Shown: positions 29,752 to 41,015 of the stretch, one piece after another
Layout of the letters: every line of letters starts with the position of its first letter
Position numbering within the stretch: position 1 is the stretch's first letter
NCBI RefSeq assembly: GCF_000337515.1
Contig: NZ_AOIQ01000006.1
Span: 68,265-132,264, forward strand
DNA from: Halovivax asiaticus JCM 14624
Lineage (GTDB): Archaea > Halobacteriota > Halobacteria > Halobacteriales > Natrialbaceae
Direction of reading: 5' to 3'
Length of the DNA: 64,000 nt
Program-made: the position numbers and the translations under genes
Notes under the pieces: generated by a model
Told to the model about the DNA's origin: nothing
The model's database searches: none
Seen by the model: only the letters and a program-made list of their open reading frames with translations

Positions 29752-30612
29752 TCAGTCCTGATCAGTGTCCGTATCCGAATCTCGATCGCGGAGTTCGCGA
29801 TCCGTGTCGGAGTCCGAATCGCTATCGGAATTCCCCTGATCAGAATCGCTGTCGAGATCGGCCAGCCCCGCGTCCATATCACTGTCCTGGTCGCCCCGAC
29901 CGGTGTCCCGGTCTCGGTCGTGAATATCCCGGTCGGCATCGGTTAGTTCGTCGTCTGTCCCACCGGTTCGATCCCCGTCGCCGACGGCAGGGTCCATCGC
30001 TTCGCCTTCGTCCCGGCTGCGCTCAGGTGACGAACTACGACCCCGCCCCGCTCGGTCGGGCTCTGAAAATTCCGGCCCGGCGCCCGCTGAGTCGTCCATC
30101 GACCGGTCGGCTGGTTCGTCCAGCCCATCGGACTCGCCAACGCGACCGGTGGCGTCACGGTCAGGGATGGTGCTCTCGTCGTCACCGGCAGCCCCCGTCC
30201 CACTCAGCCCTGTAGCCTCGTCGTCGTGCCCTTGCGTATCACTCCGACCCGCGCTGCCGTCCCGTCGGTCGGCTGGTGTGTCCGTCGATCCCATCTCTGT
30301 ACTCGACACGCCCCTGTCGTGTCCAGCCTCACGACCAGTGTCCATCGCACCACCGGATACTGTCTCGTCGTGTAGGTCGCCGCTGAGTCGTATCTCGTCG
30401 CCAGTGACACGTTCGACCGATTCCTCCTGCAATGGATACGCGTTTTCGCCGGTCCCTTCCCACCCGAGTGCAGCCTTGATGCTGTCTGTAACTCCCGGAT
30501 CGGGTGTGACGTGGGCCGTCCCGTGCTCGACGGCCGTCACCATCCCGATCTCCTCACCACTCGCGTTCACGACGGACTTTCCGACGTCGTCCTCTCCGAA
30601 TGCTGTGCACAT
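29752..30612 (-). CDS. PRC-barrel domain protein with Asp/Ser/Arg low-complexity tail
   Basis: The 286-residue protein starts at ATG 30612 (MCTAFGEDDVGK). Residues 5-75 form a PRC-barrel-type domain (GKSVVNASGEEIGMVTAVEH, then VERVTGDEIRL). The remaining 200 residues are low-complexity, with Gly/Asp/Ser/Arg and a C-terminal run of DSD and DTD repeats. The tail has no predicted fold and is strongly charged. PRC barrels bind other proteins or RNA, or anchor complexes. It is distinct from the compact CdpB1-like PRC protein at 34382. The repetitive DNA of the tail explains several spurious antisense frames. Confidence 0.7.
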   Translation of the reverse strand: MCTAFGEDDVGKSVVNASGEEIGMVTAVEHGTAHVTPDPGVTDSIKAALGWEGTGENAYPLQEESVERVTGDEIRLSGDLHDETVSGGAMDTGREAGHDRGVSSTEMGSTDTPADRRDGSAGRSDTQGHDDEATGLSGTGAAGDDESTIPDRDATGRVGESDGLDEPADRSMDDSAGAGPEFSEPDRAGRGRSSSPERSRDEGEAMDPAVGDGDRTGGTDDELTDADRDIHDRDRDTGRGDQDSDMDAGLADLDSDSDQGNSDSDSDSDTDRELRDRDSDTDTDQD

Positions 30613-30748
30613 GACAGCACCACGCACGCCAGCCGCCGGGTAGCCGGTGGTGCTTGCACATCACGGCCATCACCGGTCGGACTCCTCATACGAACGACTG
30701 TGGGTCTCGCCGCTACGGGTGGTGTTCACCACTCAGGTTAGTCGCAGG

Positions 30749-34381: not shown

Positions 34382-34672
34382 TCAGGCGACGATCTCTTCT
34401 TCGTCGTCCGGGTCGCGGACGCGTTCGACGACGTCCGCGACGAGGATGACGTCGCCGACGGCGCGAACCCAGCGATAGGGAACGACGACGCCCTGGCCCT
34501 GACGCGCCTCGTGTTCGAACAGTTCCGTATTGAGACTGCCGACGGCGAGGCCGGTTACCGATCGGACGTCGAGGTTGAGTTTGAGATCTTCGACCTCACC
34601 GACGAAAACGCCGTTTTTCGTGTACACTTCGCGGCCGACGAGTGACGTAATTTCCTGGGGTCGTTCGTCCAT
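34382..34672 (-). CDS. cdpB1: PRC-barrel protein, CdpB1-like cell-division factor
   Basis: The 96-residue protein is one PRC-barrel domain (ITSLVGREVYTKNGVFVGEV, then SVTGLAVG and VVVPYRWVRAVGDVILV) with an acidic tail. In haloarchaea, PRC-barrel proteins of this size (CdpB1, CdpB2) bind SepF and shape the FtsZ division ring. I recall that the H. volcanii cdpB1 gene lies beside a DHH phosphoesterase gene, and the same neighbour is here. That supports CdpB1 over CdpB2, but it is inference. A TATA element AATTAAGAG lies about 28 bases upstream. Confidence 0.62.
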   Translation of the reverse strand: MDERPQEITSLVGREVYTKNGVFVGEVEDLKLNLDVRSVTGLAVGSLNTELFEHEARQGQGVVVPYRWVRAVGDVILVADVVERVRDPDDEEEIVA

Positions 34673-34734: not shown

Positions 34735-37539
34735 CTAGCGAGTAACGAACATCCCCACCAGGCCGACGAGGCCAAGGGCGATCGCCCCGAGACCGATTTC
34801 GACGGCGCCGGTCGCGGCGAGGGCTGCTCCGGACACGACGCCTGCGCTCGCACCACCGGCGACGAACGCCCCCACACCGACCCCACTGGCTGCGACTCGC
34901 CGGTCGGGAGCGGAGTCCCCCTCTGTCGTTTCCGACGGTTGCGATTCGATCGACCGTTCGAGGTCCGCAACCGCCTGGTCGAGTTCGTCGATTCGGTCTC
35001 GTGGATCGTCGTCGGATTGCTCGTCGGCGAGTTCCTCGACCCTCGATTCGAGCCCGTCGACGCGTTCGTCGAGCGACTCCGGATCGGACGATTCGACCGC
35101 ATCGAGACGCGCCGCAAACGTGCTCACTCGCTCCGCTAGCTCTTCGACGTCGTCGATTGTCGCTCGATCAGCCGCATCAGGCGTCGTCGCATCGAGTTCG
35201 GACACGGACTGGTCGATCGAATCGAGCCTGTCTTCGACCCCGTCGACGTCCCGCCGGAGCGTCTCGATCGACTCGTCAGTAGCATTGCTGGCGGCCTCGA
35301 GCGTCTCGAGACGGTCGCCATTGACTTCGATAGTCGACGTCGCTTCGTCGAGCCTCGATTCGATCGTGGAAATCTTATCGGTGTGTTCTGCAATCGCGGT
35401 CTCGTTCGTCGCCACAGTGGATTCGAGCGATTCGACGTCAGATGCCAGCGAGTCCACGGTCGTCTCTGCAGCGGAGACCGACGACTCGATCGCTTCGAGT
35501 TCGCCGTCGTATCTCGACTCCAGCGACGACACCCGATCGTCGACGGAGCCGACGTCCGATTCCAGCCCTTCGACAGCAGATTCCAGGGACTCAACCGCCT
35601 CGTTCAGCGACTCGACGAACGATTGCAGTGACTCGACATCGGAACCGATCGAATCGATGGTCGAGTCGGTGTCGTCGAGTACCGATTCTACTGCCTCGAA
35701 TTCAGACTCCAGCGCATCTACGGCATCGTCGAGAGAATCGACGTGCTCCTGGGTCGTCACGAACGTCGATTCGAGCTCGTCGATCTGGTTGGTCACCCGT
35801 TCCTCGGACGCGGTCTGGGCCGATTCGAGCTCGTCGAACGAGTCGTCGATACTGGTGGACAGCTCGTCGTCGAGAGCCGAGAGCGTCTCGTCGACGCCGG
35901 AAATCCGTGTTTCGAGTTGTGCGACGGCGTCCTCACGCGCTTGTTCGATTTCGTCGACCCGCTCTGCCATAGCGGCGCGTTCGTCGGCGAGAGTCGAGTC
36001 GAGTTCGTCGACGCGTGTGGACAGTTCCGATTCGAGTTCGTCGACGCGCGCCCGTAGTTCCGCGTCGAGGTCCGCCACGTCTGTCGTCAGTTCCGACTGG
36101 AGTCCATCGAGGTCGCGTCGGTACTCGTCACGGAGCGAGTCCAGTTGGTCGGACAGCGTATCGGTTTCCGTCGACAGTTCGGTCACCGTCTCCGCGATGG
36201 TTTCGAGTCGATCGGCGTCCGCACACGTTTCGATCGCGTCGTCGACAGCCGCGAGGGTCGTCTCCACCTCGTCGAGACGATCACTGGCGGCATCGACAGT
36301 ATCGGTCCGCGCTGTCTCGGCGTCGAGCGAGTGAAGATCGTCTCGGACGGTTTCCAGTTCGTCCTTGAGCGCTGTCGTCGTTTCCTGCAGCGCCGCGATA
36401 TCGTCGTCTCTCGTCCCGAGACGGTCGAAGAGCCGTTCGATCGCGTCGTTCGCAACGTCGTCAGAGGAGGTATCCGAGTCGACCGATTCCTGGGTATCCT
36501 CGGCGTCGACGAAGTCGGTGAGCTGCCTGTCGTCCCGATCGGAGTTGCCTTCACCCGAGTCGTGCGTCGACCACGTAACTTCGGTATAGTCGTCGACATC
36601 GTCTTGAGCGGCGATCAGCGCGCCGCGGGCAGCGCTCGCCGCTGGTTCGTCGGCCAGTCGCACCCCGCGAATCGAAAACGGCAATTCGGCCGCATCGAAT
36701 CGGCCGCCGAAGAGGTATTCGACGCCGTCGACGGCGCCCGATCCCGCGAGCACGACTGGGACGGAAACACCCGGTTCGACGTCGGCAGCGGCCGCTTCGG
36801 TCCGGATCGCGGAGACGACAGATCCACAGAGGTCGTCGTACGCCTGTGCGAGTGCGCGGTCGATATCACCGCTCGCGTCCGGATCGAGTGAGAATTCTTC
36901 GAGCCGGGCAGCGATCTGCGATCGGTTGTGGCCAGTTTCGCCCGCAGCGTGGCCGACGAGCCAGTCGCGGCCCCTCGGAAGGGCAAACGCGAGCACCGGA
37001 ACCCCGTAATACACCAGCGCGACGCTGGTGAGTTTCGCCCCGATATCGATACCCACTCCCGTGAACGTCTCGTGGGCGAGTTGATCGGCGACGACTGCGT
37101 ACCCCGTGCTAATGGGGGTCGCGTCGACGTCCAGTGTGCGGAATACCTCGTCGATCGCATCTCGGTGCCGGGCTGTCGGTGTGTCGGCGTCGACGATGGT
37201 CCCGGGGACGGTATACGAGAGGCGAGTCTCCGGTTCGTCCGAAAGCGCGTCCGTGATGAGTGCCTCGATAGCCGGGTTCGCGTACGGTTCCGTCGAGAGC
37301 AGTCCACGTTCGAAAATGGCGAGTGGCTCGGCATCGGCTGCCGTCGATCGATCTCGTGCAGGGGCGCCGACGACGTAGGTCGCTCCCGATGTCTCGACCG
37401 TCAGTTCCCCCGTCTCCGACGCATCGTCGTCCTCGTCGAGTGGGTAGGCGATTGCCGGAATCGTGTCGACGACCGGCCCGTCCGACCCGTCACGCGCGAT
37501 CCGGAGTTCCTCAGTAGAAAGGGCGATACCAGTTGCCAT
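34735..37539 (-). CDS. Actin-fold domain plus long coiled coil plus C-terminal membrane hairpin; undescribed architecture
   Basis: The protein has 934 residues. Residues 1-315 read as an actin/Hsp70-like ATPase domain: N-terminal GIALSTEELRIA in the phosphate-1 position (Asp lost), YTVPGTIVD and ISTGYAVVADQL, phosphate-2 loop GIDIGAKLTSVALVYYG (163-179), adenosine motif VVLAGSGAVDGVEYLF (262-277) and EPAASAARGALIAA. Residues 320-365 are an acidic linker. About 365-865 are heptad-like Leu/Val/Ile-Asp-Glu-Ser repeats, a very long coiled coil. Residues 885-934 hold two Gly/Ala-rich hydrophobic helices ending in Arg. It should be membrane-anchored with a cytoplasmic coil and head, which could build a cortical filament or span the envelope. 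The next gene upstream on the strand is the cdpB1-like gene. Confidence 0.75.
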   Translation of the reverse strand: MATGIALSTEELRIARDGSDGPVVDTIPAIAYPLDEDDDASETGELTVETSGATYVVGAPARDRSTAADAEPLAIFERGLLSTEPYANPAIEALITDALSDEPETRLSYTVPGTIVDADTPTARHRDAIDEVFRTLDVDATPISTGYAVVADQLAHETFTGVGIDIGAKLTSVALVYYGVPVLAFALPRGRDWLVGHAAGETGHNRSQIAARLEEFSLDPDASGDIDRALAQAYDDLCGSVVSAIRTEAAAADVEPGVSVPVVLAGSGAVDGVEYLFGGRFDAAELPFSIRGVRLADEPAASAARGALIAAQDDVDDYTEVTWSTHDSGEGNSDRDDRQLTDFVDAEDTQESVDSDTSSDDVANDAIERLFDRLGTRDDDIAALQETTTALKDELETVRDDLHSLDAETARTDTVDAASDRLDEVETTLAAVDDAIETCADADRLETIAETVTELSTETDTLSDQLDSLRDEYRRDLDGLQSELTTDVADLDAELRARVDELESELSTRVDELDSTLADERAAMAERVDEIEQAREDAVAQLETRISGVDETLSALDDELSTSIDDSFDELESAQTASEERVTNQIDELESTFVTTQEHVDSLDDAVDALESEFEAVESVLDDTDSTIDSIGSDVESLQSFVESLNEAVESLESAVEGLESDVGSVDDRVSSLESRYDGELEAIESSVSAAETTVDSLASDVESLESTVATNETAIAEHTDKISTIESRLDEATSTIEVNGDRLETLEAASNATDESIETLRRDVDGVEDRLDSIDQSVSELDATTPDAADRATIDDVEELAERVSTFAARLDAVESSDPESLDERVDGLESRVEELADEQSDDDPRDRIDELDQAVADLERSIESQPSETTEGDSAPDRRVAASGVGVGAFVAGGASAGVVSGAALAATGAVEIGLGAIALGLVGLVGMFVTR

Positions 37540-37700
37540 GTCGGCGACAGTATCCGACCGATAATGGTAGTTCGGCTCCGAATACCAGATGTGAAAATCA
37601 GACCGCCGTTCGTGCCAGTAGCGATGCGATCGAACGTCGAAACCGAGCGGTGGCGAAAATCACGGTAGTGACCCACACATCGAGACGGGAACCTCTAGCG

Positions 37701-37731: not shown

Positions 37732-39243
37732 ATGTCCGAAACCGGGACAGAACCGCCGACGTACGCGACCCGGCTCCCCGACCCGGAACGTGCGTCGAAT
37801 ATTCGGTACAATCCGACACTCACCGAACTCCGCTCGCTCGCGCGCGACGACGAGCGAACGACGGAGTACGGCTCCCCTGCGTACGTCAGCGAGTATCGCT
37901 CCCGCAGCGCAGATCGAACGAAGAACGCGATCGACGACGAACTAACCGAGGCGGATCACTCACTCGTTCTCGACGCCATCACCTCTCTCTCGGATCGTGA
38001 TCTCCTCTGCGTCGACCGGCTCGTCGGGCGCCACCCCGACGCGACGTACTGCTGTCGGCTGTTCGTTCCGACGGCGTACGCCCGAATTGCCCTCACCTGG
38101 GCGAAACTCTTCGAACCGACCGACGGCCGCGATCCTGATTTTCAAACCGTTCAACTTCCCGACGCCGAGGAGACGGCGATCCGTGTCTTCCCGGACGAGG
38201 GGACGACCGCCGTCCTCGGCTCCGACTACACCGGCGAAGCCAAGAAATCGTTCCTCCGACTCTTCATGTATCGGGCCAAAGAGAACGGTGGCCTCGGCCT
38301 CCACGCCGGAAGCAAGCGGGTAACGGTGACCGACGACGAATCGACGGAACGGACGGTCGGCCAACTGTTCCTCGGACTCTCCGCGACGGGTAAATCGACG
38401 CTTACGTCCCACGGGTGCTGGCTCGACGAGCCCGAACACGCCGCGATGCTGCAGGACGACGTCTGTGCACTGTTGCCGGATGGATCCGTCGCCGGCAGCG
38501 AGGGCCAAGGGCTGTACATCAAGACACACGGGTTGACCGAGAGCGAACAACCCGCCCTCTACGACGCGGCGACAGCAGCGTCGGCCGTCTTCGAAAACGT
38601 CGCCGTCGACGAAGACGGGGCCGTCGACTTCGAGGACGACCAGTACACGGCGAACGCGCGGGCGGTCGTCCAGCGCGACGAACTCGAGAGTGCCGCCGAG
38701 GAAATCGACCTCGACGGCGTCGACCAGATCTTCTTCATCACCCGAAACCCCCTCATGCCGCCCGTCACCAAACTCGACGATCAACAGGCGGCAGTCGCCT
38801 TCATGCTCGGTGAGTCCATCGAGACGAGCGCCGGTGATCCGTCACGTGCGGGCGAATCGATTCGCGTCGTCGGGACGAATCCGTTCATCATCGGACCGGA
38901 GGGCGCGGAGGGGAACATCTTCAGAGAGCTCGTCCGCACGCTCGACGTCGACTGTTACGTCATGAACACGGGCTACATCGGCCAGCAGACGGTCGATATC
39001 GGCGTCACGGAGTCGGTGACGCTTCTGACGGAGATCGCACGAGGAACTGTCGAGTGGCGAACGGACGACCGAATGGGGCTGACGATCCCCGAATCCGTTC
39101 CCGGCATCGACATCGAACAATTCTACGTCCCGGATCACGTCGACGACTACGAGGACGCACGAGCCGCACTGCGGGAAGAACGAGCGGTGTATCTCGACTC
39201 GTTCCCACAACTCGACGACGAGATCGCCGACGCCGTCTACTGA
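37732..39243 (+). CDS. pckA: Phosphoenolpyruvate carboxykinase (ATP)
   Basis: The 503-residue enzyme has the PEP-carboxykinase P-loop LFLGLSATGKSTLTS (about residues 218-232), the metal- and oxaloacetate-binding LQDDVCALLPDG, and ITRNPLMPPVTKL. It converts oxaloacetate and ATP to phosphoenolpyruvate, CO2 and ADP, the entry to gluconeogenesis. It is an archaeal version of the ATP-dependent family and slightly shorter than bacterial PckA. It is divergent from the actin-coiled-coil gene and sits next to a small zinc-finger gene. Confidence 0.9.
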   Translation: MSETGTEPPTYATRLPDPERASNIRYNPTLTELRSLARDDERTTEYGSPAYVSEYRSRSADRTKNAIDDELTEADHSLVLDAITSLSDRDLLCVDRLVGRHPDATYCCRLFVPTAYARIALTWAKLFEPTDGRDPDFQTVQLPDAEETAIRVFPDEGTTAVLGSDYTGEAKKSFLRLFMYRAKENGGLGLHAGSKRVTVTDDESTERTVGQLFLGLSATGKSTLTSHGCWLDEPEHAAMLQDDVCALLPDGSVAGSEGQGLYIKTHGLTESEQPALYDAATAASAVFENVAVDEDGAVDFEDDQYTANARAVVQRDELESAAEEIDLDGVDQIFFITRNPLMPPVTKLDDQQAAVAFMLGESIETSAGDPSRAGESIRVVGTNPFIIGPEGAEGNIFRELVRTLDVDCYVMNTGYIGQQTVDIGVTESVTLLTEIARGTVEWRTDDRMGLTIPESVPGIDIEQFYVPDHVDDYEDARAALREERAVYLDSFPQLDDEIADAVY

Positions 39244-40412: not shown

Positions 40413-41015
40413 TTAAATCTTGTTCGCGGGTGGGACAGACCGATCGGCAGGATCCGATGCTGCACCGCCGGAGACGAATACCCGAGCGCCGGCGCCAGCT
40501 CCATAGCAGATAACGAACCCAGTAACGGCGATGAGTGTCACGGTGTGGACTGCCGACACGCCGACCACGAGCGCGCCGACCACGAGCCCCACCCCGACGC
40601 TATCGCGAAGGAAGGGACCCGAAAGTCCGTTTCCAGTGGAGACGATCGCGATGAGCGCCCACGTTGGCAACAGTGCCAGACAGACGGTCACGAGCGGAAT
40701 CGCGAAGAAAACGCCGATGTCCGAGTGACTGAGCAAGAGACCGATGTAGGCGAGCGCACCGAACACGAGGGCCGTTGGAATGCCGATCAAGATCGAGATG
40801 ACGGGGCTGCGTCGTGCCGTCACGATAGTCCGTCTGCTGTAATCGGGGAGCAACCCAAGGACGGTGATCCCAACGACGAGTATCGCTGCCACCACGAGCG
40901 CGATACGGACGACGGGAGAGACACCCATATAGAAGTCGACGACTGCCTGCTGGTCGGACAGTGGTGTCGCCGGTCGCTCAGCGAGCCCACCCACCCGACG
41001 GCCGCTGAGGAGCAT
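40413..41015 (-). CDS. Haloarchaeal polytopic membrane protein, unknown function
   Basis: The 200-residue protein has about five hydrophobic helices; VSPVVRIALVVAAILVVGI and VISILIGIPTALVFGALAYIG are the clearest. A conserved-looking DYSRRTIVTARRSPV loop separates the first two. There is no signal peptide or active-site motif. It is inserted between L11 and the L1 operon on the other strand. Several small haloarchaeal membrane families have this shape, and I cannot name one with confidence. Confidence 0.65.
   Translation of the reverse strand: MLLSGRRVGGLAERPATPLSDQQAVVDFYMGVSPVVRIALVVAAILVVGITVLGLLPDYSRRTIVTARRSPVISILIGIPTALVFGALAYIGLLLSHSDIGVFFAIPLVTVCLALLPTWALIAIVSTGNGLSGPFLRDSVGVGLVVGALVVGVSAVHTVTLIAVTGFVICYGAGAGARVFVSGGAASDPADRSVPPANKI

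Follow-up and report, generated by a model that had tools for sequence, protein, structure and literature searches.

The long gene and the plan of its product

The window analysed here, a stretch of 64,000 nucleotides (nt) of Halovivax asiaticus JCM 14624 (contig NZ_AOIQ01000006.1, positions 68,265 to 132,264), carries on its reverse strand a long gene whose product joins, from the N- to the C-terminus, an actin-fold head, a flexible linker, a heptad coiled coil and a hydrophobic hairpin (Table 1). The head is a member of the already described volactin family, and the fused protein, in the following referred to as the long form, represents a new variant that is conserved. Sequence comparison and structure modelling demonstrated this plan with respect to predicted fold, kinship, architecture and conservation. 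The frame of the window gene comprises 974 amino acids (aa) from stop to stop. Complete long open reading frames (ORFs) were extracted from 47 loci and span 505-1313 aa (median 1037), representing 44 distinct proteins. In all 44, the head, the coil and the hydrophobic end lie in a single frame, the head and the hairpin being constant and the coil variable in length. As the same in-frame plan recurs in 44 distinct complete proteins, a single gene is present, as had been assumed earlier, and an artefactual join of head and coil by sequencing or assembly error is excluded.

The Pfam model Volactin (PF25216) matched residues 1-311 of the window protein over its entire length (1-321 of 321) with an E-value of 1e-98 and 331 bits, the curated cut-off being 35. 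For residues 1-320, an AlphaFold2 model built on 54 aligned heads reached a predicted template modelling score of 0.91 and a mean predicted local distance difference test score (pLDDT) of 92.4. A Foldseek search with this model returned MreB and MamK as top solved structures (E-values of about 1e-12) and also matched actin, and VIA-align yielded Z-scores of 26.7 to MamK (5ljv; 287 residues, 3.3 Å), 25.0 to MreB (2wus) and about 24 to actins. The predicted structure thus agrees with the actin fold that an earlier note, made from the sequence of this DNA alone, had assigned to the first 315 residues. MreB and MamK, the closest solved folds, are 16-19% identical to the head, and an hhalign comparison to MreB gave an E-value of 8e-4 at a probability of 24.5% over residues 4-196. 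Both of these proteins have an active ATP pocket and neither a coiled-coil rod nor a C-terminal hairpin. The FtsA profile matched the head weakly (E-value 0.014, positions 242-319 only), and no FtsA model occurred among the best 25 of 130 Pfam matches to the window protein.

The full-length model (mean pLDDT 66.6) is of low confidence beyond the head. It displays a low-pLDDT stretch in the linker (residues 319-361), for which a separate Pfam scan returned no family, followed by helix across most of residues 360-865 with few short gaps. At the start of the rod, A366, L370, F371, R373, L374, R377 and D378 are near-invariant among 27 full-length rows. The hydrophobic periodicity of residues 361-868 peaked at 3.55, and the power at 3.5 was 1.11 as compared to 0.18 ± 0.04 (maximum 0.29) in 300 shuffled sequences. 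Similarly, the heptad path, including 10 phase shifts, scored 58.5 versus -37.6 ± 6.1 in 60 shuffles. With a period-3.5 power this far above that of shuffled sequences and a mostly helical model, the very long heptad-rich coil proposed earlier for about residues 365-865 was corroborated. Its a positions are occupied by Val (33%), Leu (25%) and Ile (18%) and its d positions by Leu (47%); heptads with beta-branched residues at a and Leu at d are the pattern of parallel dimeric coiled coils. The rod would be about 75 nm long if straight (506 residues at 0.1485 nm each), and linker and rod together span from about 190 to 930 residues across the 47 complete ORFs. A kinship of the coil with SMC, Rad50 or ASRP was rejected, since all matches remained below the curated cut-offs (best, ASRP, 81 bits versus 300). 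Crescentin, EzrA and golgin-type rods are also long coiled coils, some of them membrane-anchored; however, they lack the actin-fold head of the long form, and the profile matches of the rod were generic.

The last 45-50 residues of the long proteins are rich in Gly and Ala and contain two hydrophobic stretches in all 47 complete ORFs, the stronger of which has a Kyte-Doolittle value of 2.2-3.0. By a loose rule, all 44 distinct proteins contain near their end at least 12 consecutive residues that are neither polar nor charged. Lys or Arg occurs inside the hairpin in three of these proteins and among the last eight residues in 35, and in the window protein the hairpin is preceded by Arg-Arg and followed by Arg. 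A profile of 22 hairpin ends was searched against 116 genomes of the class and yielded 17 matches with E-values of 3.9e-9 or better, each of which lies in a long frame; they account for all 17 genomes of this set that carry the long form. As candidates for free-standing copies of the hairpin, the same 116 genomes provided six weak matches only (E-values of 8e-5 or weaker), and a Pfam scan of the C-terminal 154 residues returned no family. The two C-terminal hydrophobic helices, i.e., the membrane hairpin of the earlier note, were accordingly recovered as hydrophobic stretches in 44 distinct proteins, and the modelled helices (residues 890-909 and 913-933) are of low confidence.

Table 1. Features of the long gene, its product and its surroundings, in window coordinates.
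Feature	Residues	Position	Strand	Basis
Long volactin paralogue gene	934 aa	34735..37539	-	one ORF, ATG start
Actin-fold (volactin-family) head	1-312	36604..37539	-	AlphaFold2; Foldseek and VIA matches to MreB, MamK, actin
Degenerate phosphate-1 loop GIALSTEELRIA, Asp to Ala	4-15	37495..37530	-	head alignment
TPISTG, Thr145 replacing the aligned catalytic Glu	141-146	37102..37119	-	E. coli MreB alignment
Phosphate-2 stretch GIDIGAKLTSVALVYYG	163-179	37003..37053	-	head alignments
Adenosine-motif stretch VVLAGSGAVDGVEYLF	262-277	36709..36756	-	head alignments
Acidic low-confidence linker	313-359	36463..36603	-	pLDDT about 31-39 over 321-360
Conserved coil start NDAIERLFDRLGTRDDDI	364-381	36397..36450	-	27 full-length rows
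Coiled coil	360-865	34945..36462	-	heptad power, a/d composition, mostly helical model
Gly/Ala-rich hydrophobic hairpin	890-933	34741..34872	-	hydropathy, model helices, end profile
Upstream element TTTTCANNTCTGGTAYT...AA, starts 58 nt before ATG		37571..37597	-	shared by most long loci
PRC-barrel (CdpB1-like) gene, downstream		34382..34672	-	PF05239, 1.4e-10
ATP-type phosphoenolpyruvate carboxykinase gene (pckA), divergent		37732..39243	+	NF006821, 8.6e-190

Kinship with volactin and the ATP pocket

Volactin (HVO_2015 of Haloferax volcanii, PF25216) shares family and fold with the head of the window protein but lacks the linker, the rod and the hairpin, which account for about 600 extra residues in the long form. 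A short, canonical volactin is also encoded by the window genome, on the same contig about 50 kilobases (kb) off and outside the window; it is 34% identical to the window head, the range for short volactins being 32-36%. In a tree with 40 rows of the long and 14 of the short type, HVO_2015 not being among them, the two clades were separated by a 100/100 branch, and by sequence the long form is the sister group of short volactin, a distinct paralogue and not volactin proper. The long form is fast-evolving as compared to volactin, with end branches of up to 0.85 versus 0.08 or less in the short clade. Across genera and families, the sequence of short volactin hardly changes. As 65 of the 100 columns conserved in both clades hold the same residue, several of them in the last strand-helix block, a shared assembly surface of long heads and volactin is possible.

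A match was found in 124 of 125 Natrialbaceae genomes (none in G411) and the long form in 88, one copy (G413) being a fragment at a contig end. The same 88 genomes contain at least two matches. A single match was obtained in 36 genomes, some of them incomplete assemblies; the best E-values, of about 1e-38 to 5e-48, are in the range of short volactin, these single matches not all being listed individually. Among the matches listed, short-type open frames, measured from stop to stop, are mostly about 342-432 aa long; a few reach 538 aa and a single one reaches 702 aa. In addition, a profile of 17 long heads was searched against 391 genomes of the class, five candidates being scored per genome and rows being taken to 1e-60. 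All 75 rows with at least 288 bits came from Natrialbaceae (open frames of 649-1564 aa) and the next row, with 272 bits and 357 aa, from another family, so that no long form was seen outside the Natrialbaceae among these 391 genomes. By named loci, the carriers include Natrinema, Natronorubrum, Natrialba, Haloterrigena and others. Outside the Natrialbaceae, weak matches to PF25216 were inspected in 20 genomes and rejected as long forms; the frames are mostly 354-547 aa long, cover the domain end only and probably represent other actins, the exceptions being G060, which has a fragment, and G105, in which one copy is broken across frames. The latter genome, from another family, has two equal-scoring short volactins in addition to this third copy, which extends over two frames (copies at C3:353944-354906, C5:9952-10914 and C4:12424-13352).

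The earlier note had missed the volactin family of the head, the second, canonical volactin of the genome and the conservation of the paralogue throughout the family. The note knew of no described protein with this architecture; the head is of a described family, and no description of the long form as a whole was found in the titles and abstracts listed for volactin, salactin, CdpB1 and further terms, subscription papers and preprints lying mostly outside this scope.

Selection on the protein was estimated from the ratio of nonsynonymous to synonymous substitution rates (dN/dS, Nei-Gojobori). Relative to G100, whose head is 93% identical, the ratio was 0.20 for the head, 0.24 for the linker, 0.59 for the rod and 0.43 for the hairpin, and relative to G043, for which synonymous sites are near saturation, it was 0.26, 0.26, 0.46 and 0.10, respectively. 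By these sequence comparisons, the head is kept by purifying selection and the rod tolerates change.

The phosphate-2 and adenosine stretches were located where the earlier note had placed them, and the residues of the pocket were counted in an alignment of 40 long and 14 short heads. Position 145 aligns with the second Glu of the IEEP motif of E. coli MreB, the site of actin's catalytic Gln. This placement fits the boundary between strand and helix in the model; a separate hhalign alignment to MreB is offset by about two residues around this position. Glu occupies position 145 in all 14 short heads and in none of the 40 long heads, which carry Lys (16), Thr (11), Arg (8), Ser (3), Gln (1) or Ala (1) instead. 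Gly169 of phosphate-2 and Gly265 of the adenosine motif, both present in all short heads, are retained in only 3 and 10 of the 40 long heads, respectively. At the Asp position of phosphate-2, all short heads have Ser, and the long heads vary, with Cys in 26 of 40 and Asp in the window protein only. Compared to volactin, the long form has thus lost the catalytic Glu and several pocket glycines. Because the residue aligned with the catalytic Glu of MreB is lost in 40 of 40 cases, ATP hydrolysis has probably been lost in the long clade and its head is probably a pseudo-ATPase, in line with the weak or absent hydrolysis suggested by the earlier note.

Upstream element and neighbouring genes

The block TTTTCAnnTCTGGTAnT..g...AAnnnC was identified in 46 of 51 long loci, which include some genomes counted twice, and starts 59 nt (32 loci) or 58 nt (14 loci) before the ATG. 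The pattern failed in five loci (L130-L134), one of which (L133) has a variant by eye. Six genomes were checked and contained one copy of the element each, G100 having also a second site with two mismatches. Across 242 genomes of the class, TTTTCANNTCTGGTAYT was found at 35 sites in 34 genomes, and a reversed-pattern control gave none. All but one of these sites, which lies in G062, are positioned upstream of a long head on the same strand, and the 58/59 spacing was readable at 32 of 34 sites and not at G046 and G062 (partial head match). This set comprised 61 Natrialbaceae genomes, of which 42 carry the long form. An exact match was absent from eight of these 42 and from all of the remaining 200 genomes of the set. 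The long, almost gene-specific element at its strict spacing of 58 or 59 nt suggests a dedicated regulator for the long gene. By eye, a TATA box was not evident in this element. An element common to the long gene and short volactin was looked for and not seen; by eye, the short gene is preceded by a different, TATA-bearing block. A TATA-type block of this kind is shared by the majority of the 31 short volactin loci of the family that were compared (L002-L032).

The gene downstream of the long gene encodes a PRC-barrel protein similar to CdpB1, which, together with CdpB2, is described as a PRC-barrel division protein (PMC12186497). It adjoins the long gene only in the window and in the congeners G100, G043, G361 and G207, i.e., in five of five genomes of the genus; no such adjacency was seen among the other 47 loci, several of which are cut off near the long gene. 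In three other genera, the contig of the long gene also carries an orthologue (73-75% identical), which lies about 23-40 kb past that gene's end. A conserved division-gene neighbourhood was therefore rejected, the adjacency being confined to the window's genus, and the link to division which the earlier note had drawn from this neighbour is weakened. The divergent pckA gene is present in 29 of the 51 long loci, and genes for ribosomal proteins L11 and L1 in many of them. Downstream frames of one cluster occurred in 38 of 47 loci, many frames being shadows of true ones, and downstream in other genera no gene for division or cell shape was conspicuous (six loci inspected by eye, which is weak evidence).

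Two further genes of the window were observed in passing. A gene for a small, hydrophobic-looking protein (40413-41015, reverse strand) lies reversed between those of L11 and L1 in many loci, its product being 33-57% identical across loci and 92% in the closest relative, G100. The protein encoded at 29752-30627 (reverse strand) has, by eye, a PRC-barrel-like start and a very long acidic tail rich in Asp, Ser and Gly, and was found, among the compared loci, in the window's genus only.

A possible membrane tether for volactin filaments

In the accessible part of its description, volactin is reported to form dynamic filaments whose tips contact the membrane and to be needed for timely disk formation, and no membrane anchor is named there (PMC10869688). 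Salactin (VNG0153C of Halobacterium salinarum) has a haloarchaeal actin fold as well, but represents another lineage than the window head; as far as the accessible text of the source goes, it is a separate actin lineage nearest to MamK, with a canonical fold, a charged disordered N-terminal tail and no mention of "coiled" (PMC10746226).

The reading favoured here, with a rough probability of 0.42, is that the long form is a lineage-specific protein of the volactin family which has turned into a membrane-anchored tether docking on volactin filaments. The dimer state, the membrane topology and the binding to volactin that we infer would be as follows. Two chains likely pair in parallel via the rod, with Val, Leu or Ile at a and Leu at d, which would place the two heads together and the two hairpins at the opposite end, separated in the window protein by the length of the rod. 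The hairpins likely insert into the cytoplasmic membrane such that both of their ends face the cell interior, as judged from the Arg residues flanking the hairpin of the window protein, so that the heads would reach into the cytoplasm. There, the non-hydrolysing heads might, hypothetically, bind to or co-assemble with the dynamic volactin filaments as an anchor or a cap, and filaments or their tips might thus be held at the membrane for the control of cell shape. Volactin would be the most economical partner, since the head is related to it and has a decayed pocket, and such docking fits the published membrane contact of the filament tips. With regard to the membrane-tethered cytomotive or scaffold protein of the earlier note, a tethered scaffold is likely, whereas a cytomotive role is weakened by the absence of the catalytic Glu from all long heads. 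A farther-reaching version appears rather doubtful: that the long form would be without archaeal precedent as a membrane-anchored actin-related protein of this type, being a catalytically dead volactin paralogue that anchors or caps filament tips and whose species-specific rod length sets the distance between membrane and filament.

Several observations weigh against docking on volactin. The weaker stretch of the hairpin is only mildly hydrophobic (Kyte-Doolittle 1.3-2.1 across the 47 ORFs), because of which the anchor may be re-entrant or single-pass, and an acidic residue (D/E) occurs inside the hairpin in 23 of the 44 distinct proteins. Asp6 of the phosphate-1 loop is present in all 14 short and in 38 of the 40 long heads, the exceptions being the window protein and that of the congener G043; its loss, from which the earlier note had argued, is thus not general (2 of 40). 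With Asp6 kept in most long heads and Gly266 in all 40, the majority of long members may still bind nucleotide or have some activity. Long and short genes differ in upstream element and in neighbourhood, and the divergence of the fast long heads and the near-static short ones would fit a loosened assembly constraint. In addition, short volactin was found without the long form in other haloarchaeal families (H. volcanii was not searched for it), and volactin therefore does not need the long form in general. Co-occurrence with short volactin was discarded as evidence, the short form being nearly universal in the family and its presence hence uninformative.

The head may instead dock on another membrane machine, such as the division ring, pili or envelope synthesis, with the coil as a spacer. 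Membrane-tethered actin-like adaptors are a known kind, as FtsA and PilM are membrane-associated actin-fold adaptors without a long rod that contact the membrane via an amphipathic helix or a partner protein, and the CdpB1-like gene next to the long gene in the window's genus would suit such a role. However, this adjacency was absent from the other 47 loci compared, several of them truncated, the orthologue lies tens of kb away in three other genera, the head is a relative of volactin, and its match to FtsA is weak, rendering a division or envelope adaptor rather unlikely. An independent scaffold, in which the non-hydrolysing heads would polymerise with each other and build a static sheet or brush that is linked to the membrane but not to volactin, would draw on the complete actin fold, on a rod and an anchor that could form a cortex-like layer, and on conserved blocks which are the long heads' own (GGRFDAA, RGVRLA). 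As the ATP pocket, the usual switch of actin assembly, is decayed and the head evolves fast, this arrangement is unlikely.

The widely variable length of the rod between species, with head and hairpin fixed in place, might also indicate that the rod itself is the working part, as in golgins or intermediate-filament-like proteins, and that the head binds a ligand (such as DNA, nucleotide or another protein); yet the constraint on the head is stronger than that on the rod in both dN/dS comparisons, and a tether of this type is improbable. A decaying gene, i.e., a volactin duplicate being lost, could be read from the decayed pocket motifs and from the 37 of 125 family genomes, some incompletely assembled, in which the long form was not seen. 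Like an assembly artefact, it is refuted by the 44 proteins of the same plan, by purifying selection and by the strictly spaced upstream element, and can practically be dismissed.

Eukaryotic actin-related proteins (Arps) are divergent actin paralogues with altered ATP sites and adaptor roles. The long form resembles them in outline, but there is no close kinship, and Arps lack a membrane anchor. The long form appears to be an archaeal counterpart that arose independently, an actin paralogue that would have lost hydrolysis and become an adaptor. With regard to the link between archaeal actin filaments and the membrane, it provides a concrete candidate anchor in the Natrialbaceae.

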